64,000 bases of DNA from Mucilaginibacter rubeus (GTDB lineage: Bacteria; Bacteroidota; Bacteroidia; Sphingobacteriales; Sphingobacteriaceae), in assembly GCF_014643835.1 (NCBI RefSeq), contig NZ_BMKD01000003.1:372001-436000 (forward strand), written 5' to 3'. The notes under the pieces were generated by a model that saw nothing but the letters and a program-made list of their open reading frames with translations, ran no database searches and was not told the origin of the DNA. Shown here piece after piece: positions 3,171 to 39,855 of this stretch (positions within the stretch are counted from its first letter, which is position 1; every line of letters starts with the position of its first letter). Both the position numbers and the translations under genes were made by a program.

Positions 3171-3187
3171 GCTTTTTTTCGACCTTA

Positions 3188-3363: not shown

Positions 3364-3401
3364 GTTGGAAACCTCTCCTTCTGGAGGGGGCAGGGTGGGG
3401 C

Positions 3402-3932: not shown

Positions 3933-4061
3933 GGTCTTGATAAATTAATGTTATATGTCTTATTGCAGGAAATTATATACAATAATAATGCGGTAAAGAC
4001 ATATTAGTTTAATTTAAAGACAATATGAAATTAATCTAAATTGTGTTGATAATTAGTCTAA

Positions 4062-4433: not shown

Positions 4434-4704
4434 ATATTGGTATTATTTGTAATCAATCCAAATAAAGATAGAAAATAATTTCAACACGAATGTCTTGCAT
4501 GTTCAATACAATTTAATCGAATTACATGAATTATTGCGTAGAGGCATTAATGTAATTTAATTAGCCAAATTAGTATGGGAATTTATTAGTACGAATGCTT
4601 CGGGCTCGACAAATTATGATGGATAAGCAAATTCGTGTAATTCGCTCTAATTCGAAATAATTAGCGTGAATTATTTTTTTTCATACAAGCAATTAATTTT
4701 ATTA

Positions 4705-24147: not shown

Positions 24148-24160
24148 TAAACAAAAAACA

Positions 24161-24247
24161 CGTTATTATAAGGTACGAAGCAATGGTACGAAAGCACGGT
24201 CACCCTGTATTGCGTGCGATTGCTTCGTCGTTCTTCTTATAATGACA
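24161..24247. repeat. Degenerate palindromic REP-like element
   Basis: Left arm around TTATAAGGTACGAAGCAAT and right arm ATTGCTTCGTCGTTCTTCTT with TATAATGACA pair imperfectly. The ACGAAGCAA/TTGCTTCGT core is shared with 7342-7436. Confidence 0.6.
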
Positions 24248-24347
24248 TGTTTTTATTTCAGGGCAAAGGGATTTCGGCAGGGGCAAAACATTTACAAGGT
24301 ACGTTCAGCCAATCCCCAAAAGAGAGGGCTGGGGTGAGGTTTTTTCC

Positions 24348-24355
24348 TATCTTTG
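24348..24355 (+). promoter_or_regulatory. Predicted -7 box for the thioesterase gene
   Basis: TATCTTTG fits TAnnTTTG exactly and lies 19 bases before ATG 24375, predicting a very short leader. A G-rich tract (GAGAGGGCTGGGGTGAGG, 24323-24340) precedes it. Confidence 0.55.
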
Positions 24356-24374
24356 CCCCAAAAGCAGACTGAAT

Positions 24375-24926
24375 ATGACCGGAAAATCGCCGCAGGAATC
24401 ATACACCATCATGAACGAACTGGTATTGCCCAATGATACCAACACTTTAAACAACCTGATGGGTGGCCGTCTGCTGCATTGGATGGATATTGCCGCTGCT
24501 ATTTCGGCACAAAAGCACTGTAACAGGATCGTGGTGACAGCTTCAGTAGATAACGTATCGTTCCAGTCACCGATAAAGTTAGGTGATGTGATTAGTATTG
24601 AAGCAAAGGTTACCCGCGCGTTCACTACTTCAGTTGAGGTAAGGATGGATGTATGGGCGCAAAACATTCCATCAGGCACTAAAGTAAAAAGTAATGAGGC
24701 CTATTATACCTTTGTTGCTTTGGATAAAGATGGCCAAAAGACAAACGTGCCCGAGCTGGTACCTGAAACGGATAAAGAGCGCGCATTGTATGAGGGTGCG
24801 CTTCGCCGCCGCCAATTGAGGTTAATATTAGGCGGAAAAATGAACCCGAATGATGCTACTGAATTGAAAGCGCTTTTTTTTGGCGACCAGTTGCCACCTA
24901 ATCTTGGTGAAGAAATAAAGCAGTAA
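24375..24926 (+). CDS. Acyl-CoA thioesterase (hotdog fold)
   Basis: 183 residues, one hotdog domain with NNLMGGRLLHWMDIAAAISA, the helix carrying the conserved Asp, and TASVDNVSFQSPIKLGDVI, as in YciA/BFIT-type acyl-CoA hydrolases. The C-terminal about 50 residues are an extension common in Bacteroidota homologues. It hydrolyses acyl-CoA to free acid and CoA in the cytoplasm; chain length is not predictable. Confidence 0.9.
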   Translation: MTGKSPQESYTIMNELVLPNDTNTLNNLMGGRLLHWMDIAAAISAQKHCNRIVVTASVDNVSFQSPIKLGDVISIEAKVTRAFTTSVEVRMDVWAQNIPSGTKVKSNEAYYTFVALDKDGQKTNVPELVPETDKERALYEGALRRRQLRLILGGKMNPNDATELKALFFGDQLPPNLGEEIKQ

Positions 24927-24976
24927 CAAATTTCCCGGCGCATTGTCTAAATGGTTTAAACATTAAAACTACTGCC

Positions 24977-25177
24977 ATGCGATATTTTCTGTGCTTTTTA
25001 CTGCCACCGCTTGCCATCCTCACCACCGGCAGGATAGGTGCATTTATATTGAATATATTTTTAACCCTTTTCTTCTGGATCCCGGGCGTGATTCATTCTA
25101 TCCTTGTAACCAGCGATTATTATGAGGCTAAACGCCACAGGCAACTGATGCGGGCGACAAGGCGTTACCGTTGGTAA
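24977..25177 (+). CDS. YqaE/Pmp3-family small membrane protein
   Basis: 66 residues. FLLPPLAI, the NIFLTLFFWIPGVIHS segment and two membrane helices match the Pmp3/YqaE (UPF0057) family, whose members affect membrane potential and stress tolerance. The Arg-rich C-terminus (RATRRYRW) is cytoplasmic or exposed. It is 50 bases behind the thioesterase gene and may be read with it. Confidence 0.88.
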   Translation: MRYFLCFLLPPLAILTTGRIGAFILNIFLTLFFWIPGVIHSILVTSDYYEAKRHRQLMRATRRYRW

Positions 25178-25299
25178 CCTTGATTCGCTTGATTATGGGA
25201 TTCCCTGAGGTTTTGAATGAGACTATTTAGGACTATTCTATCAAGAAATCCTTAAATCCTAAAAATCAAGGTTCAAAATAAATTACCATATTTGCCACG

Positions 25300-26646
25300 A
25301 TGCAAAAAGGTAAGCTATTAATTATCGATGACGAAGAACGCCTCCGTAACTTGCTGGCGCGCATTCTGCAGTTGGAAGGCCATGAGGTAATTACTGCGGC
25401 TACAGCCAAAGAGGGCCTTAAAAAATTACAGCAGGATACCATACATGTGGTATTAAGCGATGTAAAGCTACCTGATATTGATGGCATCACCCTTTCTGAA
25501 ACCATCAAAAAAAACTATCCCAACACCGAGATCATCGTATTAACGGCCTACGGAACTATCAATGATGGCGTAAAAGCCATAAAAGCCGGTGCATTTGATT
25601 ATATCACCAAAGGGGATGATAACGAAAAGATCATCCCGCTGGTAAGCAAGGCCATGGATAAAGCCCTGCTGCAACAAAAAGTTGCAGAACTGGAAAGCAA
25701 GCTGAATGATAAGTTTGGTTTTGACAGGCTCATCGGTAAATCAACTGCTATCAGTGATGTGATCAAGCTGGCCCAAAAGGTGGCACTTACCGATACTACT
25801 GTGTTATTACTGGGTGAAACCGGTACCGGAAAGGAAATTTTTGCCGAAGCTATTCATCAGGCCAGCAACCGCAGCGCAAAATCATTTGTGGCGGTAAATT
25901 GCAGCGCATTCACTAAGGAATTATTGGAAAGCGAACTGTTCGGTCATAAAGCTGGTTCATTCACGGGAGCAGTTAAAGATAAAAAAGGACTTTTTGAAGA
26001 GGCCAACGGCGGCACTATATTTTTAGATGAAATAGGTGAGCTCGATCACGATCTGCAGGCTAAGCTACTTCGTGTGCTTGAATCGCAGCAATTCATTAAA
26101 ATTGGCGATACTAAACCCACCCAGGTTAACGTACGGATTCTGGCAGCTACCAACCGTAATTTGCTCAACGAAATCAATGACGGCCATTTCCGGTCTGATT
26201 TGTATTACCGTCTTTCAGTATTCCAGATCACGCTGCCAGCCTTACGCGAGCGTAAAAAAGATATCAAACTGCTGGCCGAATACTTTATGCAGCATTTTGC
26301 CCTTAAAGTAAAAAAGCAGGTAAATACCCTCAGCGACGAGTTCATAGAAAAACTGGAAGCCTATCCTTGGCCCGGTAACATCCGCGAGTTGAAGAATATT
26401 GTAGAACGTGCGGTGATCCTGACCGATAGCAATGTGCTTGATGAGAGCCTGCTACCTTATGAAGTTCAGCAGCAACAGGTGAAAAGCGGTGCACCAATCT
26501 CAGCTTTTGACCTTTCTTCTGTAGAGAAACTGCATATTCAACGGGTTTTGAACCATACTCATGGTAATAGGGCGGAAGCTGCGCATTTACTGAATATTGG
26601 TGTGGCTACGTTGTATAGGAAGTTGAAGGAATATAACCTGGAGTAA
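25300..26646 (+). CDS. NtrC-type sigma-54-dependent response regulator
   Basis: 448 residues: receiver domain with phospho-acceptor Asp54 and acidic pair Asp10/Asp11, AAA+ domain with Walker A GETGTGKE at about 172-179, sigma-54 contact loop GSFTGA at 219-224 (usual form GAFTGA), arginine-finger region and a Fis-type helix-turn-helix at the C-terminus (NRAEAAHLLNIGVATLYRKL). It activates sigma-54 promoters when phosphorylated. No kinase is adjacent, but the Kdp sensor-kinase pair is 8 kb downstream and a good sigma-54 promoter precedes the kdp genes, so I infer it is the Kdp regulator. Confidence 0.92.
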   Translation: MQKGKLLIIDDEERLRNLLARILQLEGHEVITAATAKEGLKKLQQDTIHVVLSDVKLPDIDGITLSETIKKNYPNTEIIVLTAYGTINDGVKAIKAGAFDYITKGDDNEKIIPLVSKAMDKALLQQKVAELESKLNDKFGFDRLIGKSTAISDVIKLAQKVALTDTTVLLLGETGTGKEIFAEAIHQASNRSAKSFVAVNCSAFTKELLESELFGHKAGSFTGAVKDKKGLFEEANGGTIFLDEIGELDHDLQAKLLRVLESQQFIKIGDTKPTQVNVRILAATNRNLLNEINDGHFRSDLYYRLSVFQITLPALRERKKDIKLLAEYFMQHFALKVKKQVNTLSDEFIEKLEAYPWPGNIRELKNIVERAVILTDSNVLDESLLPYEVQQQQVKSGAPISAFDLSSVEKLHIQRVLNHTHGNRAEAAHLLNIGVATLYRKLKEYNLE

Positions 26647-26653
26647 TTTCGGA

Positions 26654-26729
26654 TTGTCTGAACCTGAATCTATTGAATCTTTCTTTGGTTCTGGCAATTC
26701 TTAAATTCTAAAAATTCGAGTTCAGACAA
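26654..26729. repeat. Intergenic palindrome, TTGTCTGAAC arms
   Basis: TTGTCTGAAC at 26654-26663 and GTTCAGACAA at 26720-26729 are exact inverted repeats with AATTCT-rich DNA between. Half-copies of the arm appear at 15967-15975 and 16012-16020. It follows the response-regulator gene by eight bases. Confidence 0.6.
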
Positions 26730-26753
26730 CTCTCCGGGTGTCGACTATCAAGC

Positions 26754-26787
26754 GGCCTCTGGCTGCCGTACACACAGGCCAGAGGCC
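26754..26787. terminator. GC-rich hairpin in a 412-base gap
   Basis: GGCCTCTGGC (26754-26763) pairs exactly with GCCAGAGGCC (26778-26787). No T run follows, so the termination role is uncertain; it lies between convergent genes. The remainder of 26647-27058 holds no gene I can support. Confidence 0.45.
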
Positions 26788-27058
26788 ACTGTTATTAGAC
26801 CAAGTTACGCTGGTACATAAATATTCTCAGTAAACCACTTTTCTCGCAAAGAAAACTCCTGTTTTGCCCTCCCTTAAAGATATAGTTTAATACTCATTCC
26901 GTTGTCTAACATTTGGCCCAGCTAACTTTCGCAGGTATTTCGACCCAGTCTCTTTTTTGTATACTTTATAACAAATTTGGGGTAAATATGACTTTCCAAT
27001 AGCTCCGTTTCGTTGTTATACAGCGCACAAATACCTTCATAAAAAACATTATTTTTCG

Positions 27059-27592
27059 TTACCCAATAGTACAAATAACATAATCATTACCAATCGCTGC
27101 ACTGTTGAACACCTTTTTCAGATTGATAAATTCCTGAAGCATATGCGTTATATTGAACGCGTGGTCATCGCCTGTGCCTGTGCTCCAGACCTTACCCGGA
27201 TAAATATCATTCGTATTTAACTCATCGGCGTTAAATGATTTTACAAAATCGTCATTACTAACCAATTCGAGAAGTTGGTTGATCAGGGCTACTTTCGATG
27301 GATCATGAAAATATAAGGCAACGCTGTCGAAATCGTCCGGAGTATTTTCAAAGTCAAAATTTGCGTAGTCTATTTCTTCTCCTAAAAACAAAACAGGATA
27401 AAATATTTCCTGTACAAGGTCTGTAGTTTCGGTATCCCTGTTTTTTGAAAGCACAAACCGAAGTCCTTCAAAAGATTTATCGAAGTGCCTGCTTGATTTT
27501 GCGATGTCAAATAGGTTAAGATCGTTTAGGTTATCCGCTATTTTCAAAAAGTCGGCGTTGGTAACCTGATATAATGACGCGCTTTGTCCCAT
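27059..27592 (-). CDS. DUF1877 family protein (YfbM-like)
   Basis: 177 residues from ATG 27592 (MGQSASLYQVTNADFLKIAD); a longer start at 27667 adds residues unlike the family. The early SxxxY/F pattern, the mid-protein FLGEEIDY and the C-terminal MLQEFINLKKVFNSAA match DUF1877/YfbM, a soluble family of unknown function. It sits between the sigma-54 regulator and kdp, on the opposite strand, and has no evident relation to potassium. Confidence 0.8.
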   Translation of the reverse strand: MGQSASLYQVTNADFLKIADNLNDLNLFDIAKSSRHFDKSFEGLRFVLSKNRDTETTDLVQEIFYPVLFLGEEIDYANFDFENTPDDFDSVALYFHDPSKVALINQLLELVSNDDFVKSFNADELNTNDIYPGKVWSTGTGDDHAFNITHMLQEFINLKKVFNSAAIGNDYVICTIG

Positions 27593-27768
27593 AAAAATAA
27601 GATTTAAGTGATCGAAGATATCATAATGCCATGATAAGGAGAAATGTAATTCCACTTTGATAATCACCTATCAAAATGATAGCTGAATTCCTGCTAAATA
27701 AATAAAATCTTAATTTGATACTTGTATAAATAATTAACAATCAGTTTTTTATATAATAATAATTTTTC

Positions 27769-27785
27769 TTGGCATCCACTTGGCA
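27769..27785 (+). promoter_or_regulatory. Sigma-54 (-24/-12) promoter of the kdp operon
   Basis: TTGGCATCCACTTGGCA has the invariant GG and GC with the required 10-base spacing and only one mismatch in the -12 TTGC (TGGC). Transcription would start near 27796, 14 bases before the first small gene. An NtrC-type activator gene lies 1.1 kb upstream. A second TTGGCA...TTTGC pair (27780-27796) has 11-base spacing and is less likely. Confidence 0.75.
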
Positions 27786-27809
27786 AAGCCCTTTGCAAAA
27801 CACATAAAA

Positions 27810-27902
27810 ATGGATGCTTTACTCACAATCGCTTACCTGGCCACATTTGTAGTGGTATTCTGGGTCTTTTTTAAATCTGTAACGTACTTCGAAAAAATCT
27901 AA
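27810..27902 (+). CDS. 30-residue membrane micropeptide, first gene of kdp operon
   Basis: ATG 27810 to TAA 27902, 30 residues: MDALLTIAYLATFVVVFWVF followed by a short charged end (FKSVTYFEKI). One membrane helix of about 18 residues is predicted. It lies directly after the sigma-54 promoter and four bases before kdpF. It is not KdpF itself: the LLKPEKF tail of KdpF is on the next small gene. A second KdpF-like stabilising subunit or a leader peptide are the obvious ideas; both are inference. Confidence 0.65.
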   Translation: MDALLTIAYLATFVVVFWVFFKSVTYFEKI

Positions 27903-27906
27903 AATC

Positions 27907-27984
27907 ATGGCAGCATTATTCATCGTAGCAATAGCCGTGTTCATTTACATGGTATACGTACTTCTTAAACCCGAAAAATTTTAA
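27907..27984 (+). CDS. kdpF: KdpF, small subunit of the potassium ATPase
   Basis: 25 residues, one membrane helix ending in the family hallmark YVLLKPEKF. KdpF stabilises the KdpABC complex in the inner membrane. It starts four bases after the micropeptide stop and ends nine bases before kdpA. Confidence 0.88.
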   Translation: MAALFIVAIAVFIYMVYVLLKPEKF

Positions 27985-27993
27985 AATTAAACT

Positions 27994-29709
27994 ATGAACA
28001 CTGAACTAACGGGTGTAATTTTCACCTACCTGCTCACCTTAGCCATCGCCATTCCCCTTGGCCGCTACATAGCTAAGGTATTTAAGGGCGAAAAAACCTG
28101 GCTCGATTTTCTCGCCCCGCTTGATCGCTTTATTTTCCGTTTCAGCGGTATCGACACCAAACGCGAAATGAACTGGAAACAGCACCTGCTGGCACTGCTT
28201 ACCATCAACAGCGTTTGGCTGGTATATGCCTTTGTGTGTTTAATGGCACAAGGTCATTTGCCGCTTAACCCCGATGCTAACCCAGGGCAGTCGCCTGATA
28301 CAGCTTTCAATACTGCCATCAGCTTTTTGGTAAACTGTAACCTGCAGCATTACTCTGGCGAAAGCGGTGCTACTTACTTTACACAGCACTTTGTATTTAT
28401 GTTCCTACACTTTGTATCGGCTGCTACAGGTATTGCTGCGCTGGTGGTTGTTTTCAGGGCCATGAAAGATAAGGTTACCGATAAGCTGGGCAACTTTTGG
28501 GAGTATTTTGTAAAATCAATCACCCGTATATTATTGCCTATCTCGTTTGTAATAGCCGTGATCTTCGCTTTTAACGGCATGACTACCAGCTATGCAGGTA
28601 AAGATACTTTCATCAGTATGCAGGGCGACACTGTTCACGTATCCCGCGGACCGGTTGCACCTCTGGTTGCTATTAAGCACTTAGGTACCAACGGCGGCGG
28701 CTGGTTTGGCGCAAACTCCGCCCACCCTATCGAGAACCCTAACTATTTAACCAATACTGTCGAGCTGGTAGCACAGGTTGCTATCCCGATCGCGTTGGTG
28801 TTTGCATTGGGTTTTTATCTCAATAAAAAGAAATTCGCTTATGTGATCTTCGGCGTAATGACGCTGGGTATGCTCATGCTGTTGATCCCGACTATGAATG
28901 CCGAACTGAACGGAAACCCTGCCATCGCAAAAATGGGTATCAGCCAGCCAACCGGTGCTATGGAAGGTAAGGAAGTAAGATTTGGTCCGGCTAACTCGGC
29001 TTACTGGAGCATCGTGACTACTATTATCTCTACAGGTTCGGTAAACTCCATGCATGACAGTGCTATGCCGGTATCAGGTACTATGATGCTGCTGGGTATG
29101 ATGGTTAATTGTTTTTATGGTGGCTGCGGCGTTGGTATCCTCAACTTCTACATATTTATCATAGTAGCAGTATTTATTTCAGGACTGATGGTTGGCCGTA
29201 CGCCTGAGTTTTTAGGCCGTAAGATAGAGGCGAGGGAGATGAAAATAGCTTCGCTGATCGCTTTGCTTCACCCGTTCATTATCCTTGTAGGCTTGGCCAT
29301 ATCATCATATTATGTGGTTAACGTAGCCGGTGCCGATTGGGCTGTTAAACCTTCGGCCTGGTTAAATAACCCCGGTACACATGGTTTCTCCGAAATGTTG
29401 TACGAGTATACTTCAGCCGCAGCCAACAACGGTTCGGGTTTTGAAGGTTTGGGCGATGGTAATATCTTTTGGAACTATACCACCGGCATCGTGATGATAT
29501 TGGGCAGGTTCCTGCCAATAATTGGTCCGCTGGCTATTGCCGGATTGTTGGCTAACAAAAAATATATACCTGAATCGGCCGGTACATTGAAGAGTGATAC
29601 TTCAACCTTTGGGTTGATGATCTTCGCGGTGATCGTGATCATTGCAGCGTTGTCATTCTTCCCTTCACTGGCTTTAGGCCCAATTGCTGAACATTTTTCA
29701 TTAAAATAA
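27994..29709 (+). CDS. kdpA: KdpA, potassium-binding channel subunit
   Basis: 571 residues, ten or more membrane helices. The four selectivity-filter-like loops of the superfamily of K+ transporters are recognisable ([49 protein letters not shown]). KdpA carries the high-affinity K+ path of the KdpFABC pump. Length and order kdpF-A-B-C are standard. Confidence 0.96.
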
Positions 29710-29711
29710 TC

Positions 29712-31742
29712 ATGAACTCAACTCAAAATACATTGTTTCAGGGTGATCAGATGAGGGATGCTTTTAAACAATCCTTTATCAAGTTAAACCCTCGTGTGCT
29801 GTTCCGCAACCCGGTAATGTTTACTGTAGAGATCGGTACAGTTGTAATGCTCATTGTGAGCATATTTTCGCTGACCAATAAAGGCCAGGGTAGCTTTGCC
29901 TACAACTTTACGGTATTCATTATATTATTGTTAACTGTGCTGTTTGCCAACTTTGCCGAGGCCATTGCGGAAGCACGTGGTAAAGCCCAGGCCGAAAGTC
30001 TCCGCAAAACCCGCGAAGAGACACCTGCCCGCTTACTGGTTAACGGTAAGGAAGAAAAAGTGATGTCGTCACAACTAAAAAAAGGTGATGTTTTCATTTG
30101 CGAAACAGGGGATAATATCCCTACCGACGGTGAAATTATTGAAGGTATCGCTACCATTGATGAATCGGCTATTACAGGTGAATCCGCCCCGGTGATCCGC
30201 GAGGCCGGTGGTGATAAATCATCAGTTACCGGCGGTACCAAGGTATTATCCGATAGGATTAAAGTATTGGTTACTACCCAACCGGGCGAAAGCTTTTTGG
30301 ATAAGATGATCGCGCTGGTAGAAGGTGCATCACGCCAGAAAACCCCTAATGAAATAGCCTTAACCATTTTATTAGCTGGTTTTACGCTGATCTTCGTTAT
30401 TGTGTGCGTTACCCTGAAGCCATTTGGTGATTATTCAAATACGCCCATCACTATAGCCGCTTTTATATCGTTGTTTGTTTGTTTGATCCCTACCACTATC
30501 GGTGGCCTTTTATCGGCCATCGGTATTGCCGGGATGGACAGGGCTTTACGCGCCAACGTGATCACCAAAAGTGGTAAAGCTGTTGAAACAGCGGGTGACT
30601 TAGACACTTTATTACTGGATAAAACTGGTACCATAACCATTGGTAATCGTAAAGCAACCAGCTTTTACCCAACAGCAGGGGTAAATGAGCAGGAGTTTGT
30701 AATGGCTTGCGTATTAAGTTCACTGGCCGACGAAACCCCTGAAGGTAAGTCGATTGTAGAGCTGGCCGAGCAAGGTCCGCACAAACTAAAAATCCACGCT
30801 CCAGCCGATTCAGTGTTTATCAAATTCACTGCCGAAACCCGTTCAAGCGGTTTAGATACCCCCGATGGTTTACGCATCCGCAAAGGTGCTTTTGACTCCA
30901 TCCGTAATATTGCTTTAAAAGCTGGTAACCCGTTTCCAACAGATGTAGAGGAGAATGTTAAAAAGATCTCATCAAACGGTGGTACGCCATTGGTTGTATC
31001 ACAAAATGAAAAGATCATGGGTGTGATTGAGTTGCAGGATATCATTAAAACCGGTATTGCCGAACGCTTTGAACGCCTGCGTAAAATGGGTGTTAAAACG
31101 GTGATGGTAACCGGCGATAACCCACTTACCGCCAAGTTTATTGCCGAGAAAGCCGGTGTGGATGATTTTATTGCCGAGGCCAAGCCCGAAGATAAAATGA
31201 ACTACATTAAGAAAGAACAGCAAGGCGGTAAACTTGTAGCCATGATGGGCGACGGTACAAACGATGCCCCCGCACTTGCCCAGGCCGATGTTGGCGTAGC
31301 CATGAACAGCGGTACTCAAGCTGCCAAAGAAGCCGGTAACATGGTGGATCTGGATAACGACCCAACCAAGCTGATCGAGATTGTGGAAATAGGTAAACAG
31401 TTGCTGATGACACGTGGTACGCTCACAACTTTCAGTATAGCAAACGACGTAGCTAAATATTTCGCCATTGTTCCGGCTTTATTCATGGTATCAATGCCCG
31501 CCTTAAAAGCGCTGAACATTATGGACCTGCACAGTCCGCAATCGGCGATACTTTCGGCGGTGATATTCAATGCTATTATTATTCCGTTGCTGATACCATT
31601 GGCTTTGCGTGGCGTTGAGTATAAACCGATAGGCGCAAGTGCGTTGTTACGCCGTAACCTGCTCATTTATGGCTTAGGCGGTATTATTATACCTTTTATA
31701 GGCATTAAATTAATTGATTTAGCTGTTTCATTATTCATATAA
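29712..31742 (+). CDS. kdpB: KdpB, P-type ATPase subunit
   Basis: 676 residues. The phosphorylated Asp303 lies in [10 protein letters not shown]; the TGES actuator loop (AITGESAPV), KGAF nucleotide-binding loop and [11 protein letters not shown] hinge motif are all present. It hydrolyses ATP to drive K+ uptake through KdpA. It starts two bases after the kdpA stop. Confidence 0.97.
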
Positions 31743-31750
31743 AAACTAAA

Positions 31751-31834
31751 TGAGCCGGGGACGTGAGGTATGGTTTTAGGGCGACAGATAAGCTTTAACT
31801 ACCATCCGTCACAAACCCCACGTTCCCAAACTCA
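31751..31834 (+). other. Imperfect inverted repeat between kdpB and kdpC
   Basis: The left arm from 31751 (TGAGCCGGGGACGTGAGGT) and the right arm ending 31834 (CCCCACGTTCCCAAACTCA) pair with a few mismatches around about 40 bases. The kdpB-kdpC gap is normally a few bases, so this 111-base insertion with a stem is unusual. Confidence 0.55.
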
Positions 31835-31853
31835 TCTTTAAAAATTAAATAAA

Positions 31854-32420
31854 ATGAAAACATATTTGTTGCCATCCATCAAGCTTACCCTAATACTGAT
31901 AGTATTAACAGCAGGCATCTATCCTTTAGCTATAGCCGGTATAGGTAAATTTACCCCGGGTAAAGGCGATGGTGAAACCATTACATACAAAGGCCGTGTA
32001 GTTGGCTACGCCAACATTGGTCAAAAGTTTACTAAAGACGAGTATTTCTGGGGTCGTCCGTCATCAGTTGATTATAATGCTGCCGGTTCAGGAGGCTCAA
32101 ACAAAGGCCCGTCAAATCCTGATTACCTGAAACAGGTTGAAGGCAGGATTGAGGATTTCCTGAAACATAACCCTGACGTAACACGCTCACAAATTCCTGC
32201 CGAACTGGTTACAGCGTCAGGCAGCGGTTTGGACCCTGATCTTTCACCAGCCGGAGCAAAAGTACAGGTTGCCCGTGTAGCTAAAGTTCGCGGTTTATCA
32301 GTTGATGCCGTAAACAAACTGGTTGATGAGCATACTGAGCAGCCTTTGTTAGGTTTGTTTGGTCCTGCTAAAGTGAATGTATTAAAGCTGAATGTAGCTT
32401 TGGATGGATTGAAGAAGTAA
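31854..32420 (+). CDS. kdpC: KdpC, potassium ATPase accessory subunit
   Basis: 188 residues, one N-terminal membrane helix (about 8-28), then a periplasmic domain with YFWGRPSSVDYNAAGSGGSN and SGSGLDPDLSP, both KdpC hallmarks. KdpC bridges KdpA and KdpB and raises nucleotide affinity. Confidence 0.96.
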   Translation: MKTYLLPSIKLTLILIVLTAGIYPLAIAGIGKFTPGKGDGETITYKGRVVGYANIGQKFTKDEYFWGRPSSVDYNAAGSGGSNKGPSNPDYLKQVEGRIEDFLKHNPDVTRSQIPAELVTASGSGLDPDLSPAGAKVQVARVAKVRGLSVDAVNKLVDEHTEQPLLGLFGPAKVNVLKLNVALDGLKK

Positions 32421-32453
32421 AAACCAGGCTGCCGCGGTTTTAGCGCAGCTCAA

Positions 32454-32493
32454 ATCCTCGCCGGGGTTAGCAATAATTAGCAACGGCGAGGAT
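32454..32493 (+). terminator. Hairpin after kdpC
   Basis: ATCCTCGCCG (32454-32463) pairs exactly with CGGCGAGGAT (32484-32493); the loop itself contains TTAGCAATAATTAGCAA. No T run follows, so it may be an mRNA end-protecting or partial stop signal before the porin gene. Confidence 0.5.
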
Positions 32494-32548
32494 ACAAACA
32501 CAATTTGGGTTACCAATAAGGAACCCGGAAATTTTAATACCTACTTAA

Positions 32549-33595
32549 ATGAAATTTTTCCTGCTATTGATATTTTCGATGTTAACCTGTGCTTTTATAG
32601 TTAAGGCTCAGGATACGGTCAAAACCACATCCGATGCGCCTTTGGTGGTTTATGGCTCGGTTGATACCTATTTTAAGTATGATTTCGCGAACAGGGGATC
32701 GCAGATCCCGACGAGTTTTGCAACGGATCACAATTCAATTTCTATCGGGATGATAGATCTGGGTTTAAAGAAAAAGGTTGGCAGGGCCGCTTTTGTAGGC
32801 GAGTTATCATTTGGTCCGAGAGGACAAAGCCAGTCGATACCAAACGGATCTGATGGCGATTCGTATCATATTCAAAACTTGTATGTGGCTTATGATGTAA
32901 CAGATAAATTTGTACTTACTGCTGGATATATGGCTACCTTTATAGGTTATGAAGTTGTGAGCCCGGTTGGCAATTTTAACTACTCAACCTCTTATCTGTT
33001 TACCAATGGCCCGTTTCAAAACGCGGGTTTTAAAGCCGCATATTCGTTTTCGGATAAAGTGAACGTGATGGCCGGTGTGTTTAATGATAATTGGAATTAT
33101 TACCGGTCGTCAAATCAAGTAAACAGTTTTGGCGCTCAGCTGATATTAAACCCGGTTAAGGGCTGGACCGCCTATTTAAACGTAATTACCGGAGGGATTG
33201 TAGGCACCGAGTTTGATTTAACAACTGCCTATCAAATAACAAACGCGTTTAAGCTTGGCCTGAACGCGGCCGACTTTTCGGCAAACAAAGGTGTTACCGG
33301 CGGTTTTTCGGGCGTAGCTTTGTATCCGCAACTGGCAGTTTCAAAATATGTTACACTTGGTTTAAGGGGCGAATATTTTAAGCATAAAACAGGTACTTAT
33401 ACCGCAATTGCAGGGCCGGTAAATGGTAAATCGGTTACAGCGGCAACGCTTACTGCTAACGTTAAAGCAGGCCCGTTAACATTAATACCCGAGGTGAGAT
33501 TGGATCACGGATCGGTAGAGCAGTTTAAAGCACGCAATGGTGATCTGACAAAGTCTGCATCACAGTTTGTGCTGGCAGCCGTTTATGGGTTTTAG
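32549..33595 (+). CDS. Outer-membrane beta-barrel protein (porin-2/OmpL-like)
   Basis: 348 residues with a signal peptide (MKFFLLLIFSMLTCAFIVKA). The mature part is made of alternating amphipathic strands and ends in aromatic VYGF, as outer-membrane barrels do. VYGSVDTYFKYDF and the NLYVAYDVTDKFVLTAGYMATFIGYE region resemble the Bacteroidota bbp2 porin family. Position between kdpC and the Kdp sensor genes suggests it lets K+ or other solutes cross the outer membrane. That role is inference. Confidence 0.8.
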   Translation: MKFFLLLIFSMLTCAFIVKAQDTVKTTSDAPLVVYGSVDTYFKYDFANRGSQIPTSFATDHNSISIGMIDLGLKKKVGRAAFVGELSFGPRGQSQSIPNGSDGDSYHIQNLYVAYDVTDKFVLTAGYMATFIGYEVVSPVGNFNYSTSYLFTNGPFQNAGFKAAYSFSDKVNVMAGVFNDNWNYYRSSNQVNSFGAQLILNPVKGWTAYLNVITGGIVGTEFDLTTAYQITNAFKLGLNAADFSANKGVTGGFSGVALYPQLAVSKYVTLGLRGEYFKHKTGTYTAIAGPVNGKSVTAATLTANVKAGPLTLIPEVRLDHGSVEQFKARNGDLTKSASQFVLAAVYGF

Positions 33596-33720
33596 CAGCA
33601 ATTAAATGCTTAACTATTACAGCAAATCCAGGCATCGTGACTAAAGCATGTGCAAAGTGAGCGGAAAGCCTGACCGGCATGGAACACCATAAAAACTAAA
33701 GGAAGATTCAAAGGCGACTT

Positions 33721-34851
33721 ATGAATGAGGACACTAAAGAGCAATCTGTAGAGCATTTCCTGGAGCTGATCAGAAAATCGCGCCGCGGAAAGTTCAAGGT
33801 ATATATAGGCATGAGTGCCGGTGTAGGCAAAACCTACCGGATGCTGCAGGAGGCCCAAACCCTGCTGCGCAATGGTATCGACGTGAAAATTGGCTACATC
33901 GAAACCCATAACCGTAAAGAAACCCATGCCTTGCTGGAAGGTTTGCCTGTAATACCCCGCCGTAAACTGTTTTACAAGGGGAAGGAGCTGGAGGAGATGG
34001 ACCTGAAAGCTGTAATAAGCCTGCGCCCCGAGGTGGTTATAGTTGACGAGCTTGCCCACACCAACATTGAGGGCAGCAACAATGAAAAACGATGGCAGGA
34101 TGTACTGGAGATCCTGAATGCAGGCATTAACGTGATCAGTGCGGTGAACATTCAGCACATGGAAAGCCTTAATGAGGAAGTGGAACGGATAACCGGTGCA
34201 ACCATCCACGAGCGTGTACCCGATAAGGTTCTGCAACTGGCCGACGAGGTGGTAAACATCGACCTTACCGCCGATGAGTTGATTGAACGACTTAAAGAAG
34301 GCAAAATTTATGATGAGAAAAAGATCCCGACAGCGCTAAGTAACTTTTTCCAGGCGGAGCGGATCTTGCAGTTGCGCGAGTTGGCCCTGCGTGAGGTGGC
34401 CCACCAGGTAGAGCGGAAAATTGATATTGAGGTGCCTAAAACAATTAAGCTAAGGCCCGAGCTGTTTTTAGCTTGTATCAGTACCAATGATGAGTCGGCT
34501 AAGGTTATTATCCGTAAAACAGCAAGGTTATCGTCATACTATCGCTCCAAATGGTATTTGCTGTATGTGCAAACTTCGCGCGAGAGCAGCGATAAAATTA
34601 ACTTAGCCACGCAAAGGCATCTCATAAATAATATGAAACTGGCCACTCAATTGGGTGGTGAAGTGCTTAAGATAAAGAGCGATCACGTAGCACGTACTAT
34701 TTGGGAAACGGCCGAAAAATATGATATTACCACGATTTGCATCGGCAAGCCGCGGTTTAAATTTTACCAGCTTATCATGAAAACAGCGGTGTTTACACAG
34801 CTACTAAATAAAATGTCGAAAACTGATATTGACCTTGTAATACTTTCATAG
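33721..34851 (+). CDS. Stand-alone KdpD sensor module (no kinase domain)
   Basis: 376 residues: KdpD N-terminal domain with Walker A GMSAGVGKT at residues 30-38 and Walker B VVIVDELAHTN, then a Usp-like alpha/beta domain (about 240-370). It stops where KdpD normally continues with four membrane helices and a histidine kinase. In classical KdpD this part senses K+ and, in some bacteria, cyclic di-AMP. The next gene, two bases on, is a separate histidine kinase, so the two proteins probably act together. Confidence 0.9.
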   Translation: MNEDTKEQSVEHFLELIRKSRRGKFKVYIGMSAGVGKTYRMLQEAQTLLRNGIDVKIGYIETHNRKETHALLEGLPVIPRRKLFYKGKELEEMDLKAVISLRPEVVIVDELAHTNIEGSNNEKRWQDVLEILNAGINVISAVNIQHMESLNEEVERITGATIHERVPDKVLQLADEVVNIDLTADELIERLKEGKIYDEKKIPTALSNFFQAERILQLRELALREVAHQVERKIDIEVPKTIKLRPELFLACISTNDESAKVIIRKTARLSSYYRSKWYLLYVQTSRESSDKINLATQRHLINNMKLATQLGGEVLKIKSDHVARTIWETAEKYDITTICIGKPRFKFYQLIMKTAVFTQLLNKMSKTDIDLVILS

Positions 34852-34853
34852 CC

Positions 34854-36575
34854 ATGACAATAAAAAATAAACTCCGGGCAGGGATAGGTTTCCTGTTTGT
34901 ACTGGCAATAATTTGCTGCGGAATGTCGATATATTTCCTAAATCGGTTATCTGCCGATGCAGGTGCTATATTAAAGGATAATTATAAAACAGTAAAGTAT
35001 ATGCAAAATATACTTACCGCTATTGATTCGCGCACCGACAAACTATCGGCAGACCAACAAAAAACGATAAATGACAATTTGGTATTGCAGGAACATAATA
35101 TTACCGAGGTTGGCGAGCTGCAGCTTACTGATTCTTTGCGTGCTATTTTTGAACGTTTAACGCAGGAACCTGATAATAAAATAACCGAAGACGACTTACG
35201 CAATCGCCTGCACAGGCAGGTATATGGGATAATGAAGCTCAACATGGATGCCATCGCGCGAAAGAATGAGATAGCTAACACAACTTCAAAACGAGGGTCG
35301 TTGCTGGTGGCATTTTTAGGCGCGTTTTTGTTTTTGGTGGCATTCAGTTTCGCGGTTAATTTCCCGGGATACATCGCCAACCCAATTAAGGAGCTTACGG
35401 TCCGTATTAAAGAGGTATCAAACAAAAACTACCATCAGCAGATTCATTTTGAGTCGGACGATGAGTTTGGCGAACTGGGCCAGGCTTTCAATAACATGAC
35501 CCGCAAGCTTGATGAGTTTGAAAACAGTAACCTGGCCAGTATCCTGTTTGAGAAAAAGCGGATTGAAACTATTATCAATTCCATGCATGATGCCATTATT
35601 GGTCTTGACGAAAAAGGTGTTATCATTTTTGCCAACCAGGTGGCCTGCAACCTGATCGGCATGAAGCCAGATCAGCTCAACGGTAAATACGCGCCAGATA
35701 TTGCCATCGAAAATGACCTGATGCGCAAGCTGCTTGTTAATGACCAGGCAAAGCTTCGGATCTTTGCTGATGAGCGCGAAGGTTTTTATTCGCGCGAATC
35801 ATTATCGGTAAGCAGCAGGGATAAAGTGATAGGCAAAGTGATTATCCTAAAAAATATTACCGAGTATCAACAGTTGGATGAGGCAAAAACTAATTTCATC
35901 GCTACCATATCGCACGAGTTAAAAACCCCTATCTCATCCATAAAAATGAGCCTGAAATTATTGGAAGATGAACGTATAGGCGAAGTAAATGCCGAGCAGC
36001 GCCAGCTGATAGGTAATATAGAAGACGATACCCGCCGCCTGTTGCTCATCACCGGCGAGCTGCTGGATATGGCACAGGTTGAAACAGGTAAATTACAACT
36101 TAACTTCGGCAGTACGCATCCTCAAAATATTGTGGATTATGCCGTAAAAGCCATTAAGTTTATAGCCGATCAAAAGCATGTAGAAATTAAGGTGAAATGC
36201 GATCAAAGCCTCCCCAAAGTACATGCCGATTTGGATAAAACAACCTGGGTGCTCATCAACCTGCTTTCGAATGCTATAAAATATAGCCACGAAAAATCGA
36301 CAGTTGAACTGGTTGTTAAAAAACATAAGAACGATGAGATAGAGTTTTCGGTAACTGATCATGGCAAGGGAATAGAACAGCAATATCTGCCCCGTTTGTT
36401 TGAGCGCTATTTTAAGGTGCCTAATGCTACATCCGAGCAAAGCGGCACGGGTTTAGGCCTTGCCATCGCCAAGGATTTTATTGAGGCGCAAGCAGGTAAA
36501 ATTAGCGTGGATAGTGAAATAGGTTCGGGCAGTACATTTTATTTTACATTAAAACGGGCGATAGCCGCGGCGTGA
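34854..36575 (+). CDS. HAMP-PAS histidine kinase of the Kdp region
   Basis: 573 residues: membrane helices at about 8-30 and 150-172 enclose a periplasmic or exposed helical sensor region; HAMP (about 175-225), PAS (about 235-330), HisKA with phospho-His354 in ISHELKTP, and HATPase_c with N-box LINLLSNAIKYS and G-box GTGLGLAIA. It lies directly behind the KdpD-like module. No response regulator follows; the NtrC-type protein at 25300 is the nearest candidate partner. Confidence 0.9.
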   Translation: MTIKNKLRAGIGFLFVLAIICCGMSIYFLNRLSADAGAILKDNYKTVKYMQNILTAIDSRTDKLSADQQKTINDNLVLQEHNITEVGELQLTDSLRAIFERLTQEPDNKITEDDLRNRLHRQVYGIMKLNMDAIARKNEIANTTSKRGSLLVAFLGAFLFLVAFSFAVNFPGYIANPIKELTVRIKEVSNKNYHQQIHFESDDEFGELGQAFNNMTRKLDEFENSNLASILFEKKRIETIINSMHDAIIGLDEKGVIIFANQVACNLIGMKPDQLNGKYAPDIAIENDLMRKLLVNDQAKLRIFADEREGFYSRESLSVSSRDKVIGKVIILKNITEYQQLDEAKTNFIATISHELKTPISSIKMSLKLLEDERIGEVNAEQRQLIGNIEDDTRRLLLITGELLDMAQVETGKLQLNFGSTHPQNIVDYAVKAIKFIADQKHVEIKVKCDQSLPKVHADLDKTTWVLINLLSNAIKYSHEKSTVELVVKKHKNDEIEFSVTDHGKGIEQQYLPRLFERYFKVPNATSEQSGTGLGLAIAKDFIEAQAGKISVDSEIGSGSTFYFTLKRAIAAA

Positions 36576-36597
36576 GCCATAACCCTTTTATCGGCAA

Positions 36598-37359
36598 TTA
36601 CCAACCGCCTTTAAACCCTTCGGTTAAGGCGTGTTGGTAATTTTCTATATCGAACGAATACAGGTACGGCGCCTTATGCGCACCGCCTTTACGTGGCTCT
36701 TCAGACCGGTTAAGGATGCCAAAAGCTAAGATCCGGCGTTGAAAGTTACGCCTGTCCAACTTTTTACCTAAAATGGCTTCATACAATTTTTGCAGCTCGG
36801 GCATGGTAAATTCTCTCGGCATCAGGTTGTAACCTATGGGTTGATAGTTAAGCTGCAGGCGCAAGGCATCCAAAGCGCTTTTATAAATATTTTCGTGGTC
36901 GAGCTGCATCTCGGGCATGTCATCCAGGTCGCGCCAGGCACAAAGCTCCGAAAACTGATCGGGGTGGGGTATAACGCCAAAAAAGTCGACCAGCGCGTAA
37001 TAGCCAATAGATATAAACCGGCCAGAAAACCAGTTTTGTTCTTTTGGCAGCATATCGGCATACATATCGTTATGGACCTTTGAACGGTCGGGATCACCAA
37101 ATACACGAAACTGCTGTAAAAATATTTTATCTAAACCGGTACGTTCCTGTAGTATCCTTACAGCGGCATTGTCTATCGGTTCTTCCTTAAGTACAAAACC
37201 GCCGGGCAAATACCACTTCTCTTCGTCATGGGTTTTTAATAGCAGCACTTTCATTTGCCCCTCATGAAATCCAAATACAACACAATCAATAGAAATGTGG
37301 TTTACGTAATTTTTGCGGGCATCCTCGCTGTACTCAATAAGTTGCTGTTTACTTAACAT
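36598..37359 (-). CDS. Nudix-domain transcriptional regulator (NrtR/AraR type)
   Basis: 253 residues: Nudix domain (about 20-150) followed by a winged-helix DNA-binding domain (about 165-245), the layout of NrtR-like regulators, some of which control arabinose or other sugar genes in Bacteroidota. In the Nudix box (Gly54-Leu76) two of the signature glutamates are replaced (Ile69 and Arg73; Glu72 and Glu60 remain), so hydrolysis is probably lost and the domain serves as ligand sensor. It is divergent from the GH3 gene; a palindrome lies in the shared region. Confidence 0.85.
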   Translation of the reverse strand: MLSKQQLIEYSEDARKNYVNHISIDCVVFGFHEGQMKVLLLKTHDEEKWYLPGGFVLKEEPIDNAAVRILQERTGLDKIFLQQFRVFGDPDRSKVHNDMYADMLPKEQNWFSGRFISIGYYALVDFFGVIPHPDQFSELCAWRDLDDMPEMQLDHENIYKSALDALRLQLNYQPIGYNLMPREFTMPELQKLYEAILGKKLDRRNFQRRILAFGILNRSEEPRKGGAHKAPYLYSFDIENYQHALTEGFKGGW

Positions 37360-37409
37360 TTGTGCTATTGTACAAATAAAGTTTGATTTTTTAATTATAA
37401 TATTTACAA

Positions 37410-37428
37410 TTGTGTACTTAATACACTA
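37410..37428. promoter_or_regulatory. Palindromic operator candidate 1 (GTGTA-N5-TACAC)
   Basis: TTGTGTACTTAATACACTA lies between the divergent Nudix-regulator and GH3 genes. The same GTGTA-N5-TACAC form recurs at 40414-40428 and 60873-60887. Autoregulation by the Nudix regulator is inferred. Confidence 0.5.
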
Positions 37429-37548
37429 TGATAAATGCCGTAGCATCCTGTTTCTAAAATTGTCAAAAATATTTAAAGGCGCAATGAAATGCTCTGATTA
37501 TTAGTCATATTTGTTAACCAATTATTTACTACCCACATAAATTAAAAA

Positions 37549-39855
37549 ATGAAAAAGTATTTTTCAAGTCGGCTTGTTATAGCCATTACGCCACTTTGCT
37601 TGGCGTTGATGCCTTATAATAAGGTATTGGCCCAAAGCAAAACCGAAGATGCAAAAATGAATGCCTATGTTAAAGGCCTGATGAGTAAAATGACACTCGA
37701 TGAAAAAATTGGGCAGTTAAACCTGGTAACCATCGGAGCGGCAACAACAGGATCGGTAGTAAATAAAGGGGTTGAAGAAAATATAAAAAATGGATCAATT
37801 GGTGGAGTGTTTGGTGTTTGGGGTACAGCACAAACCCGCCAGATCCAGGATATAGCCGTTAAAAACTCAAGGCTGCACATTCCGCTTATTTTTGGTTTGG
37901 ACGTGATCCACGGTCACCGTACTATTTTCCCTATCCCCTTGGGCATGTCGGCAACGTGGGACATGGGCCTGATCAAACAGTCGGCACAAATTGCAGCTAA
38001 AGAAGCAACCGGCGAAGGTTTGAACTGGGTGTTTTCGCCAATGGTTGATATTGCCCGCGACCCGCGCTGGGGCCGTATTTCTGAAGGCTCGGGTGAAGAC
38101 CCATGGTATGGTTCACAAGTGGCAAAAGCTATGGTGCAGGGTTACCAGGGTACCAGTATGAAAGATGCCGATGCCGTGATGGCCTGCGTTAAACACTTTG
38201 CACTTTACGGTGGCGCAGAAGCCGGCCGTGAGTATAACACAGTTGATATGAGCCGCATTAAAATGTACCAGGATTACCTGCCGCCATATAAAGCAGCAGT
38301 TGATGCCGGTGCGGGCAGTTTCATGAGTTCATTTAATACAGTTGATGGTGTGCCTGCAACAGTTAACCAATGGTTGTTAACCGATTTATTAAGAAAACAA
38401 TGGGGTTTTAAAGGTTTCGTGGTATCTGATTATACCGCTGTAAACGAAGTGACAGATCATGGCCTTGGCGATTTGCAAACAGTATCTGCCCTTGCGCTGA
38501 AAGCCGGCTTGGATATGGATATGGTAGGAGAGGGGTTCTTGAAAACGTTGAAAAAGTCACTTACACAAAAGAAAATCACCCAGCAGGAAATTGACCAGGC
38601 CTGCCAGCGTGTATTGGAAGCTAAGTACAAATTAGGTTTGTTTGATAACCCTTACAAATCGATGGATGCCGGTAAAGAGGCTAAAGAAGAGCTATCAGTT
38701 GCGAACCGCGCAGCTGCAAGAGAGATTACTAAACATTCCTTCGTATTATTAAAAAATGATAATCAAACGCTTCCGCTTAAAAAAGGCGGTAGCATCGCAT
38801 TGGTAGGCCCATTGGCCGATAATCACCGCGATATGCTGGGTACATGGGTTATTGCCGGCGAGTGGCAAAAATCGGTGAGCGTAATGGAAGGTATTAAAAA
38901 TGTTGTGGGTAACAATGTTGCCATTAACTATGCTAAAGGTGCTAATGTAACTGAAGATAGTTTGTTTATTAAAAGGCTGAACTTTGGTCCCGGAATGGTT
39001 TCTTTAGATGCTAAGCCGGCTGACGAATTATTGAAAGAAGCGGTTGACGCTGCTAAAAAATCGGATGTGATTGTGGCTGTTGTTGGTGAATCCCAAAGCA
39101 TGTCGGGCGAATCGTCAAGCCGCTCGGATATCGATATTCCCGAAAGCCAGAAAAACATGCTGAAGGAACTTTCAAAACTGGGCAAACCGATGGTGATTGT
39201 GCTGTTTAACGGTCGTCCGCTTACCCTAACCTGGGAAGATAAGCATGCTAACGCGATACTTGACGTTTGGGCGCCCGGCACCGAGGCCGGTAACGCCATC
39301 GCCGATGTATTATTTGGCGACTATAACCCGGCCGGTAAATTAACTGCTACATTTCCGCGCAGCGTAGGGCAAATACCTATTTATTACAACCACAAAAACA
39401 CGGGCAGGCCATACAAAGGCGGTCCTTCAAAATTCAGGTCAAATTATCTTGATATTTCAAACGATCCGCTTTATCCGTTTGGTTACGGCTTAAGCTATAC
39501 CACCTTTAACTACAGCGCTGTTAGCGTAAGCAAAACCAAATTAAAAGGTAATGAAACCTTAACGGCTACTGTTACAGTAACCAATACGGGTAAATATGCG
39601 GGGGAAGAAGTGGTACAGTTATATATAAGCGATCCTGTAGCAAGTATCAGCCGTTCGGTAAAAGAGCTTAAGGGTTATCAAAAAATAAGCCTTAAGCCGG
39701 GTGGGTCAAAACAGGTAAGCTTCACTATTACTCCGGAGCTATTGAAGTTTTATAACACGCAGCTTAAGTATGACTGGGAACCAGGCGAATTTGTAGTTGA
39801 AATAGGAACCAACTCGGCCGATACGCATAATACATCGGTTTGGTGGGCTAAATAG
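37549..39855 (+). CDS. bglX: GH3 beta-glucosidase (BglX-like), exported
   Basis: 768 residues with a signal peptide ending near NKVLAQ. The GH3 barrel carries nucleophile Asp294 in VVSDYTA and the KHFALYGGAEAGREYN substrate loop; the alpha/beta sandwich follows, and a fibronectin-III-like domain ends the protein. It removes beta-linked glucose (or related sugars) from oligosaccharide ends in the periplasm. It opens the SusCD locus but is followed by its own terminator. Confidence 0.92.
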   Translation: MKKYFSSRLVIAITPLCLALMPYNKVLAQSKTEDAKMNAYVKGLMSKMTLDEKIGQLNLVTIGAATTGSVVNKGVEENIKNGSIGGVFGVWGTAQTRQIQDIAVKNSRLHIPLIFGLDVIHGHRTIFPIPLGMSATWDMGLIKQSAQIAAKEATGEGLNWVFSPMVDIARDPRWGRISEGSGEDPWYGSQVAKAMVQGYQGTSMKDADAVMACVKHFALYGGAEAGREYNTVDMSRIKMYQDYLPPYKAAVDAGAGSFMSSFNTVDGVPATVNQWLLTDLLRKQWGFKGFVVSDYTAVNEVTDHGLGDLQTVSALALKAGLDMDMVGEGFLKTLKKSLTQKKITQQEIDQACQRVLEAKYKLGLFDNPYKSMDAGKEAKEELSVANRAAAREITKHSFVLLKNDNQTLPLKKGGSIALVGPLADNHRDMLGTWVIAGEWQKSVSVMEGIKNVVGNNVAINYAKGANVTEDSLFIKRLNFGPGMVSLDAKPADELLKEAVDAAKKSDVIVAVVGESQSMSGESSSRSDIDIPESQKNMLKELSKLGKPMVIVLFNGRPLTLTWEDKHANAILDVWAPGTEAGNAIADVLFGDYNPAGKLTATFPRSVGQIPIYYNHKNTGRPYKGGPSKFRSNYLDISNDPLYPFGYGLSYTTFNYSAVSVSKTKLKGNETLTATVTVTNTGKYAGEEVVQLYISDPVASISRSVKELKGYQKISLKPGGSKQVSFTITPELLKFYNTQLKYDWEPGEFVVEIGTNSADTHNTSVWWAK

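Follow-up and report, generated by a model that had tools for sequence, protein, structure and literature searches.

A complete Kdp K+ pump lies in a 64-kb stretch of Mucilaginibacter rubeus DNA (hereafter the window, meaning the whole 64 kb that was analysed); its KdpF, KdpA, KdpB and KdpC proteins all exceed the curated cut-offs of the NCBIfam profiles. The pump genes are accompanied by genes for an NtrC-type regulator, a short KdpD/Usp protein and a separate histidine kinase. All of these genes had been named in the original prediction made for this DNA, and they were confirmed where it had placed them by open reading frame (ORF) calls and profile searches. Together with a palindrome and a -24/-12 promoter in front of the pump genes, they are arranged as follows:

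25300-26646, plus strand: NtrC-type response regulator (ORF call; receiver, sigma-54 AAA+ and Fis helix-turn-helix domains, PF00072, PF00158 and PF02954), the proposed activator of kdp
27667-27683, no strand: palindrome CCTATCAAAATGATAGC, the proposed upstream activating site (pattern-free motif search, locus scan and separate test set)
27770-27785, plus strand: -24/-12 promoter TGGCATCCACTTGGCA, 86 nucleotides (nt) past the palindrome, with a predicted start at about 27796
27810-27902, plus strand: small ORF before kdpF, 30 residues with a single helix, ending YFEKI (conservation among loci; codon-position pattern)
27907-27984, plus strand: kdpF (TIGR02115, 27.9 bits; cut-off 26.85)
27994-29709, plus strand: kdpA (TIGR00680, above cut-off)
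29712-31742, plus strand: kdpB, with the TGES serine (TIGR01497, above cut-off)
31854-32420, plus strand: kdpC (TIGR00681, above cut-off)
33721-34851, plus strand: stand-alone KdpD/Usp protein of 376 residues (KdpD domain PF02702), the proposed KdpB serine kinase
34854-36575, plus strand: HAMP-PAS histidine kinase (Pfam) that has an N-terminal sensor of its own and is proposed to phosphorylate the regulator

In about half of the Bacteroidota kdp loci that we sampled, comparison of sequences suggests that the pump is switched on by the NtrC-type regulator at the conserved palindrome; this appears to hold for the window as well. A KdpB scan yielded 590 loci, and the best 80 of these formed a first set. 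Sixty-six were of the Bacteroidota type (L001-L063, L065, L068 and L077; L063 is titled Ignavibacteria and L019 only 'bacterium'), the closest relative found being Mucilaginibacter gossypiicola (L001; KdpB 98% identical). Gene presence was scored by tblastn with the window proteins at 300 bits or more, within the stretch examined at each locus. On this basis the 66 loci (L001 included) contained the regulator in 54 cases, KdpD/Usp in 60 and the kinase in 59. Six of the 12 loci lacking the regulator at kdp were short contigs, and in 7 of 7 cases checked (six loci of the first set and one of the second) a relative of the regulator, 55-85% identical, was found elsewhere in the genome. The regulator was not found at this threshold in the stretches examined at 14 loci from other phyla.

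The consensus of sigma-54 promoters is TGGCAC-N5-TTGCW, with a GG-N10-GC spacing. The near-consensus -24/-12 site of the original prediction is indeed present at 27770-27785; it has GG-N10-GC and two mismatches, and the start near 27796 that had been predicted fits its position. Taken alone, however, such a match has no significance: sequences with at most two mismatches occurred 33 times in the window, against 39.1 expected from shuffles, which is chance level. Because the lone match was no better than chance, we examined the conservation of the upstream region in relatives. Picking the best consensus match in each upstream region was uninformative and gave scattered positions, and a first motif search that reached up to kdpA returned only kdpF coding sequence; it was rerun ending at the small ORF. 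The pattern TGGYAY-N3-6-TTGG was present in 14 of 63 upstream regions and in none on the opposite strand, with 0.3 expected from dinucleotide-preserving shuffles and one occurrence in nine regions from other phyla.

Sixty loci, the window among them, were searched without a preset pattern over at most 300 nt in front of the small ORF (L001, a near-copy, was not used for the motif sets). This gave a palindrome, CCTATCATTTTGATAGG or CCTTCCAAAATGGAAGG, with the consensus CCTWYCAWWWTGRWAGG. Scanning with this consensus placed the palindrome upstream of kdp in 51 of 61 first-set loci, again counting the window. The 190 nt past the palindrome were then searched in the same pattern-free way, which returned TGG[AC]A[CT]A-N2-TTTTGGCAT; in this motif the distance from GG to the next G keeps the known sigma-54 spacing, GG-N10-G. 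The promoter past the palindrome reads TGGCAT-N4-TTGGCA and corresponds to 27770-27785 of the window. It is thus through its conservation among relatives that the -24/-12 site becomes significant.

The consensus for the palindrome was taken unchanged from the first set and applied to a second one. For the latter, KdpB was found in 109 of 395 genomes drawn evenly from the phylum, and every second of 111 places was taken, giving 56 loci that were classed by KdpB identity and neighbouring genes. Twenty-eight were window-like (class A), 14 fell into class B and 11 into class C, and three were left unclassed; hence the window's gene set recurs across Bacteroidota, at roughly every second kdp locus of the sample. 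The regulator was present in 27 class A loci, and KdpD/Usp and the kinase in all 28. No class A locus of this test set had a kdpB more than 95% identical to that of a training locus. With the cut set to 14 out of 17, the palindrome was found upstream of kdpA in 24 of the 28 class A loci; with a cut of 15 the counts were 22/28 for class A, 0/14 for class B and 0/11 for class C. Elsewhere in the same loci there were five sites in 517 kb (class A), one in 241 kb (class B) and none in 195 kb (class C). The promoter score past the palindrome averaged 15.5, compared with -0.7 in composition-preserving shuffles.

The distance from palindrome to promoter was also constrained. The 75 pooled spacings comprised 45 of 73-77 nt, 16 of 86-88 nt and 10 of 94-100 nt, with one between these clusters and three outside; that is, 71 of 75 fell into three clusters about one helical turn apart (best period 10.7 nt). 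In the training set the best period was 10.5 (R 0.83). In the test set 21 of 24 promoters lay within the three spacing windows, against a mean of 2.9 and a maximum of 10 in 500 shuffles. Such phasing is what an activator of this kind predicts, since it must face the polymerase while bound to DNA. The original proposal that kdp stands under sigma-54 by way of an NtrC-type regulator therefore gains from the comparison (conserved palindrome, promoter and phasing) a support that its lone promoter match could not give.

The small ORF is a further regular part of these loci. Encoding about 26-34 residues with one hydrophobic helix and the ending (W/F/Y)FE(K)I, it precedes kdpF in 52 of 61 first-set loci, including the window, and by its pattern in 23/28 class A, 0/14 class B and 0/11 class C test loci. 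Differences among 196 pairs were distributed over codon positions 1, 2 and 3 as 33, 17 and 50%, the pattern expected of coding sequence. The window copy matches nothing in Pfam or NCBIfam. The product, typically of about 27 residues, is perhaps a further small Kdp subunit.

With its receiver, its AAA+ domain carrying a GAFTGA-type loop (GSFTGA in the window) and its Fis helix-turn-helix, the regulator belongs to the NtrC family. The loop in 79 class A regulators was GAFTGA in 68, GSFTGA in 7 (window included), GAFSGA in 1 and different in 3. In a midpoint-rooted tree of 54 regulators, the 33 class A proteins and a paralogue from M. gossypiicola formed one clade (100/98). This clade adjoined the 12 class B proteins, which have a long branch (97/90), and stood apart from eight other NtrC-type regulators. 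We found no OmpR-type KdpE in the 64-kb window, as had been predicted: five KdpE queries from other Bacteroidota loci (E 1e-10) matched only the receiver domain of the NtrC-type protein (66 bits). The classical KdpDE arrangement is thus lacking here, the more so as the 376-residue KdpD stops before the membrane part. Nor did any of the 28 class A test loci contain KdpE at 150 bits. The other classes are organized differently. Class B loci (L110, L114-L116, L120, L122-L124, L126, L127 and L129-L132) have a KdpB about 60% identical, a more distant NtrC-type regulator and kinase (before kdp in 13 of 14) and a longer KdpD; searches upstream of kdpA (15 loci, L125 being added) and of the regulator (12 loci) gave no convincing shared motif. 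KdpE matches occurred in 10 of the 56 sampled loci, whose kdpB is in each case some 57-62% identical to that of the window; they account for ten of the 11 class C loci, the remaining one (L134) being cut off.

The separate histidine kinase at 34854-36575 was confirmed and is supported by the comparison across relatives. Pfam assigns it HAMP, PAS, HisKA and HATPase domains and detected no KdpD-type membrane domain. Between two hydrophobic stretches lies a segment, presumably periplasmic, in which N43, N82, T84, E85, E88 and N130 are invariant in 29 aligned rows and 98-100% conserved in 87. The sensor half was found once per genome in seven of eight genomes, with no match in the Phocaeicola genome G009. 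Because of these conserved residues and the single sensor half per genome, the kinase is, as judged from its sequence, a dedicated sensor with candidate ligand residues. The description of the locus as having a split KdpD was therefore misleading: the kinase is no second half of KdpD and has a conserved sensor of its own. In Phocaeicola faecalis the sensor half of a detached kinase (L169, 4261-5727) is seemingly absent.

In the KdpD/Usp protein Pfam found the KdpD domain and no membrane or kinase part. The best-matching model was NF038185 (KdpD-like non-kinase potassium sensor; 354.4 bits, below the cut-off of 550). Passages of Silberberg et al. 2024 (PMC11018627) show an atypical serine kinase activity of the KdpD domain, directed at the TGES serine of KdpB. 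A short Deinococcus KdpD/Usp performs this phosphorylation under stimulation by cyclic di-AMP (c-di-AMP), and Bacteroidota are listed there among the phyla with mainly short KdpD. All 88 class A KdpD/Usp proteins of more than 320 residues are short, with Walker A and DELAH in 88/88; K37, D109, E110 and R190 are invariant in 31 aligned rows, and TGES is present in 94 of 94 class A KdpB proteins, that of the window included. The residues expected of the serine kinase (Walker A, D109/E110, R190 and the TGES of KdpB) are thus all kept except for the Trp of the W39/R190 adenine pair: of the 88 proteins, 64 have Tyr at position 39, 23 have Phe and one has Cys. From the retained catalytic residues and the precedent of short KdpD, we read KdpD/Usp as probably the serine kinase of KdpB, a brake on the pump, and not a modulator of the histidine kinase.

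The original prediction had assigned it the latter role, with the soluble protein sensing K+ or a nucleotide and modulating the separate kinase, which in turn phosphorylates the NtrC-type regulator. The two genes do adjoin in most loci and move together in L169. In Pedobacter sp. Leaf216, however, the kinase is elsewhere (L187) and KdpD/Usp remains at kdp (L021). This separation, the conservation of the serine-kinase residues with the TGES of KdpB, and the direct phosphorylation of KdpB by short KdpD described in passages of PMC11018627 make modulation of the kinase improbable and no longer the best reading.

We consider it highly probable, on the strength of these comparisons, that the locus encodes a dedicated K+-limitation system, in which the kinase signals to the regulator, the regulator acts through the palindrome and the sigma-54 promoter, and KdpD/Usp stops the pump. 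The comparisons show the gene content, its conservation, the palindrome, the promoter and the phased spacing, with no KdpE found in the window. The course of events given next is inferred, as regards binding of the regulator, transfer of phosphate, dependence on sigma-54, the extent of the operon, the activity of the serine kinase and the signals. At low K+, the HAMP-PAS kinase, by means of its presumably periplasmic domain, would phosphorylate the NtrC-type regulator. The regulator would bind the palindrome, and DNA looping would lead to an open complex of RNA polymerase-sigma-54 at the promoter. A single message would span the small ORF, kdpFABC, a porin gene (see below), KdpD/Usp and the kinase. 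On return of K+, KdpD/Usp would phosphorylate the serine in the TGES loop of KdpB and the pump would stop.

Several observations count against this reading. The palindrome was not found at the score used in 10 of the 61 first-set loci (L023, L026, L032, L041, L043, L044, L048, L050, L051 and L056) and was likewise not found in four class A loci of the test set (of 28). In the -12 element TTGGCA prevails over TTGCA, the base after G being G in 67% and C in 14%. The window has GG-N10-GC and many relatives GG-N10-GG, with a phased palindrome in 71/75; the sigma-54 reading therefore leans on the type of regulator and on the geometry. As to the latter, the best period tried on the test set alone was 11.5 (R 0.80), with R 0.70 at 10.5, where shuffles reached 0.59, and the spacing classes seem to follow lineages, which would reduce them to few independent changes. 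The rpoN gene was found in 48 of 49 genomes and also in 23 of 23 genomes of other kdp types, so its presence tests little. Two of the 66 window-type loci carry a KdpE-like regulator: L026 (Parapedobacter koreensis, 466-2141; 261 bits) and L060 (Flavihumibacter fluminis, 2737-4501; 236 bits). The kinases beside these genes, of 330 or 360 residues, are KdpD-C-like and match the window kinase only in the catalytic part. A second system may therefore share control at these loci, and the NtrC-type pair need not be the sole control everywhere. The KdpE-like gene and second kinase of L060 sit beside a kup-like gene.

The trigger of the brake raises a further difficulty. Diadenylate cyclase was found in 35 of the 49 genomes and not in the other 14, which include all ten genomes titled as Flavobacteriia genera and yet carry the short KdpD/Usp. 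Among 47 relatives, the Usp segment is alike with and without the cyclase. The motif (A/G/C)XSXSX2N(Y/F), given for c-di-AMP-binding KdpD-Usp of Firmicutes in a passage of PMC8214093, does not fit the window, which has CISTN with Asn in place of the second Ser, as do most of the 47 relatives. Given the similarity of Usp in both groups and the 14 genomes in which no cyclase was found, c-di-AMP is hardly the general trigger of KdpD/Usp, and may at most act in some relatives.

Finally, 55 of the 75 loci have a T-run after the palindrome, so that the element could also end transcription. It might even be a mere terminator between the regulator gene and kdp, as it is separated from the end of the regulator gene by 60 nt or less in 35 of the 75 loci; the -24/-12 match would then be due to chance and kdp would use another promoter. 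However, T-runs are nearly as common far from the regulator end (28/40) as near it (27/35). In the window the palindrome lies between divergent genes, 1023 nt from the regulator end and without a T-run, and a terminator scan gave no hits in 26600-28000. The sequence of the palindrome is conserved, not merely its pairing; its spacing to the promoter is phased, and the pair recurs before other genes (see below). A terminator alone is thus a very unlikely explanation, and a double role as operator and terminator may exist in some species. Very unlikely, too, is a constitutive kdp under dominant post-translational control in these bacteria, as passages of PMC11018627 suggest for species without a separate kinase, with short KdpD as the main Bacteroidota type and KdpD lacking kinase domains linked to species without KdpE, because the genes of a two-component pair are linked to kdp and the architecture of the promoter is conserved.

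A looser form of the palindrome pattern gave 82 forward matches, against 20 for the reversed control, in 50 genomes, 39 of which contained a match. Among the matches listed, 20 sites away from kdp were examined. Five of them precede telling genes (L169, L174, L183, L185 and L187), and the other 15, which we did not count, are within or at the ends of genes or before genes with no evident link to K+. For comparison, promoter scores on random stretches reached 8.3 at the 95% point and 12.2 at the 99% point. In P. faecalis (L169) the KdpD/Usp-kinase pair is behind a palindrome (promoter 15.2 at spacing 52), both genes being missing from the kdp stretch examined. The detached kinase of Pedobacter sp. 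Leaf216 (L187; 15.3 at 76) is likewise missing from its kdp stretch examined. An M20 deacylase follows the palindrome in L185 (10.4 at 85). In L183, from an uncultured Mucilaginibacter, the gene behind it encodes a Kup-like K+ transporter (389 bits against TIGR00794, whose cut-off is 539.6; promoter score 7.3 at 65). The odd spacings of L169 (52), L183 (65) and a site in L008 (59) do not fit the palindrome-promoter geometry. SPFH/band-7 genes were also seen behind palindromes, at 5447 in L062 (Pfam; 3.9 at 86) and at 3001 in L174 (assigned by likeness; 6.6 at 94), where the positions fit and the scores are weak.

A GNAT (argA-like) and/or M20 (argE/dapE-like) gene stands behind the palindrome in L167, L008, L007, L018, L185, G002:C50 and G018:C13. 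Near kdp this is so in L007 (14.9 at 85), L008 (12.4 at its non-fitting 59) and L018. In M. gossypiicola (L167, 6772-11840) the palindrome (9.8 at 86) precedes a cluster of GNAT, M20, regulator and BBP2 porin genes, the second regulator being 60% identical to that of kdp. A search of 16 genomes found two GNAT copies in six (G001, G002, G007, G014, G016 and G018); in five of these the closer copy has the palindrome in front of it, and none was found there in G014. The GNAT and M20 proteins score below all curated cut-offs shown. We read the pair as argA/argE-like from Parabacteroides L170, where a 48%-identical GNAT copy adjoins argD-, argC- and argG-like genes. By analogy with Bacillus subtilis, in which positively charged amino acids stand in for K+ (a passage of PMC5573677), the pair might raise ornithine or arginine to replace K+. 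A bolder proposal, towards which we remain somewhat sceptical, is that one NtrC-type regulator runs a K+-starvation regulon of Bacteroidota, made up of the pump, its serine-kinase brake, an unrecognised membrane subunit of about 27 residues and an entry pore in the outer membrane. In Pedobacter and Mucilaginibacter the regulon would further include a second argA/argE-like pair making ornithine or arginine in place of K+. The palindrome in any case offers a handle for finding further K+-responsive genes.

Three further genes lie within or beside the locus. The original gene list was incomplete in that it left out the first two of them, as well as the small ORF:

27059-27667, minus strand: DUF1877 gene (ORF call), between the regulator and kdp
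32549-33595, plus strand: OmpL-like beta-barrel porin (BBP2; PF07642), flanked by kdpC and the KdpD module
36598-37359, minus strand: NUDIX protein with an NrtR/AraR-type winged helix (Pfam), directly after the kinase

The porin is possibly an entry route for K+, and the NUDIX protein is likely a regulator of sugar or NAD metabolism. The DUF1877 gene is not present in the near-identical M. gossypiicola locus, reflecting insertion or loss. In several Flavobacterium loci a DUF7674 gene (for example L046, 7262-7675) lies between the promoter and kdpF and explains the longer distance there. The window gave no Rfam match at the gathering score, so a riboswitch is not supported; there were no tandem repeats within 24000-38000, and a search for a plasmid copy of the locus gave no match.

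The proposed system shares with classical KdpD/KdpE a K+-linked two-component control of kdpFABC and differs from it in that the latter uses a fused KdpD and an OmpR-type KdpE. It would separate making the pump from stopping it. For the second task, the short KdpD/Usp of Deinococcus geothermalis, as described in passages of PMC11018627, offers a close parallel: it too has the KdpD domain and Usp without a membrane or kinase part and keeps Walker A, DE and R190. It is stimulated by c-di-AMP, whereas some relatives of the window seem to lack the cyclase, as noted above. Position 39 is Tyr in the D. radiodurans homologue as well (37% identical). In that species, according to passages of PMC5716572, KdpD-N is likewise part of the structural operon and a separate HAMP kinase exists; the kinase and regulator, however, form a divergent operon, the regulator is reported to bind the kdp promoter unphosphorylated, and those passages make no link to sigma-54.

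In the literature, as far as titles, the beginnings of abstracts and passages (PMC10434189, PMC2875401, PMC3162934 and PMC10634447) go, and with subscription papers outside the scope, we found no description of the spread in Bacteroidota, the phased palindrome/promoter pair, the ORF of about 27 residues or the palindrome-linked genes, including the argA/argE-like pair. The main text of a 2025 survey of sigma-54 regulons (PMC12316311) contains neither 'kdp' nor 'potassium'. The nearest counterpart is DVU3334-3339 of Desulfovibrio vulgaris Hildenborough. According to passages of PMC3333781 and PMC4641369, an NtrC-type, sigma-54-dependent regulator there targets kdpFABC and was mapped to the kdp operon by DNA affinity, and KdpD/UspA and the histidine kinase are separate ORFs. 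That system belongs to another phylum, and the only orthologues listed in passages of PMC3333781 are those of D. vulgaris Miyazaki and Syntrophobacter fumaroxidans; we liken it to the window by its described parts. A sigma-54/NtrC switch of kdp is thus already known in kind from Desulfovibrio, and the system of the window is a variant of it. The present comparison would extend this switch to a large phylum, where roughly half of the sampled kdp loci would have it, and offers a candidate control whose operator, promoter and geometry are testable in genetically tractable Flavobacterium or Pedobacter.

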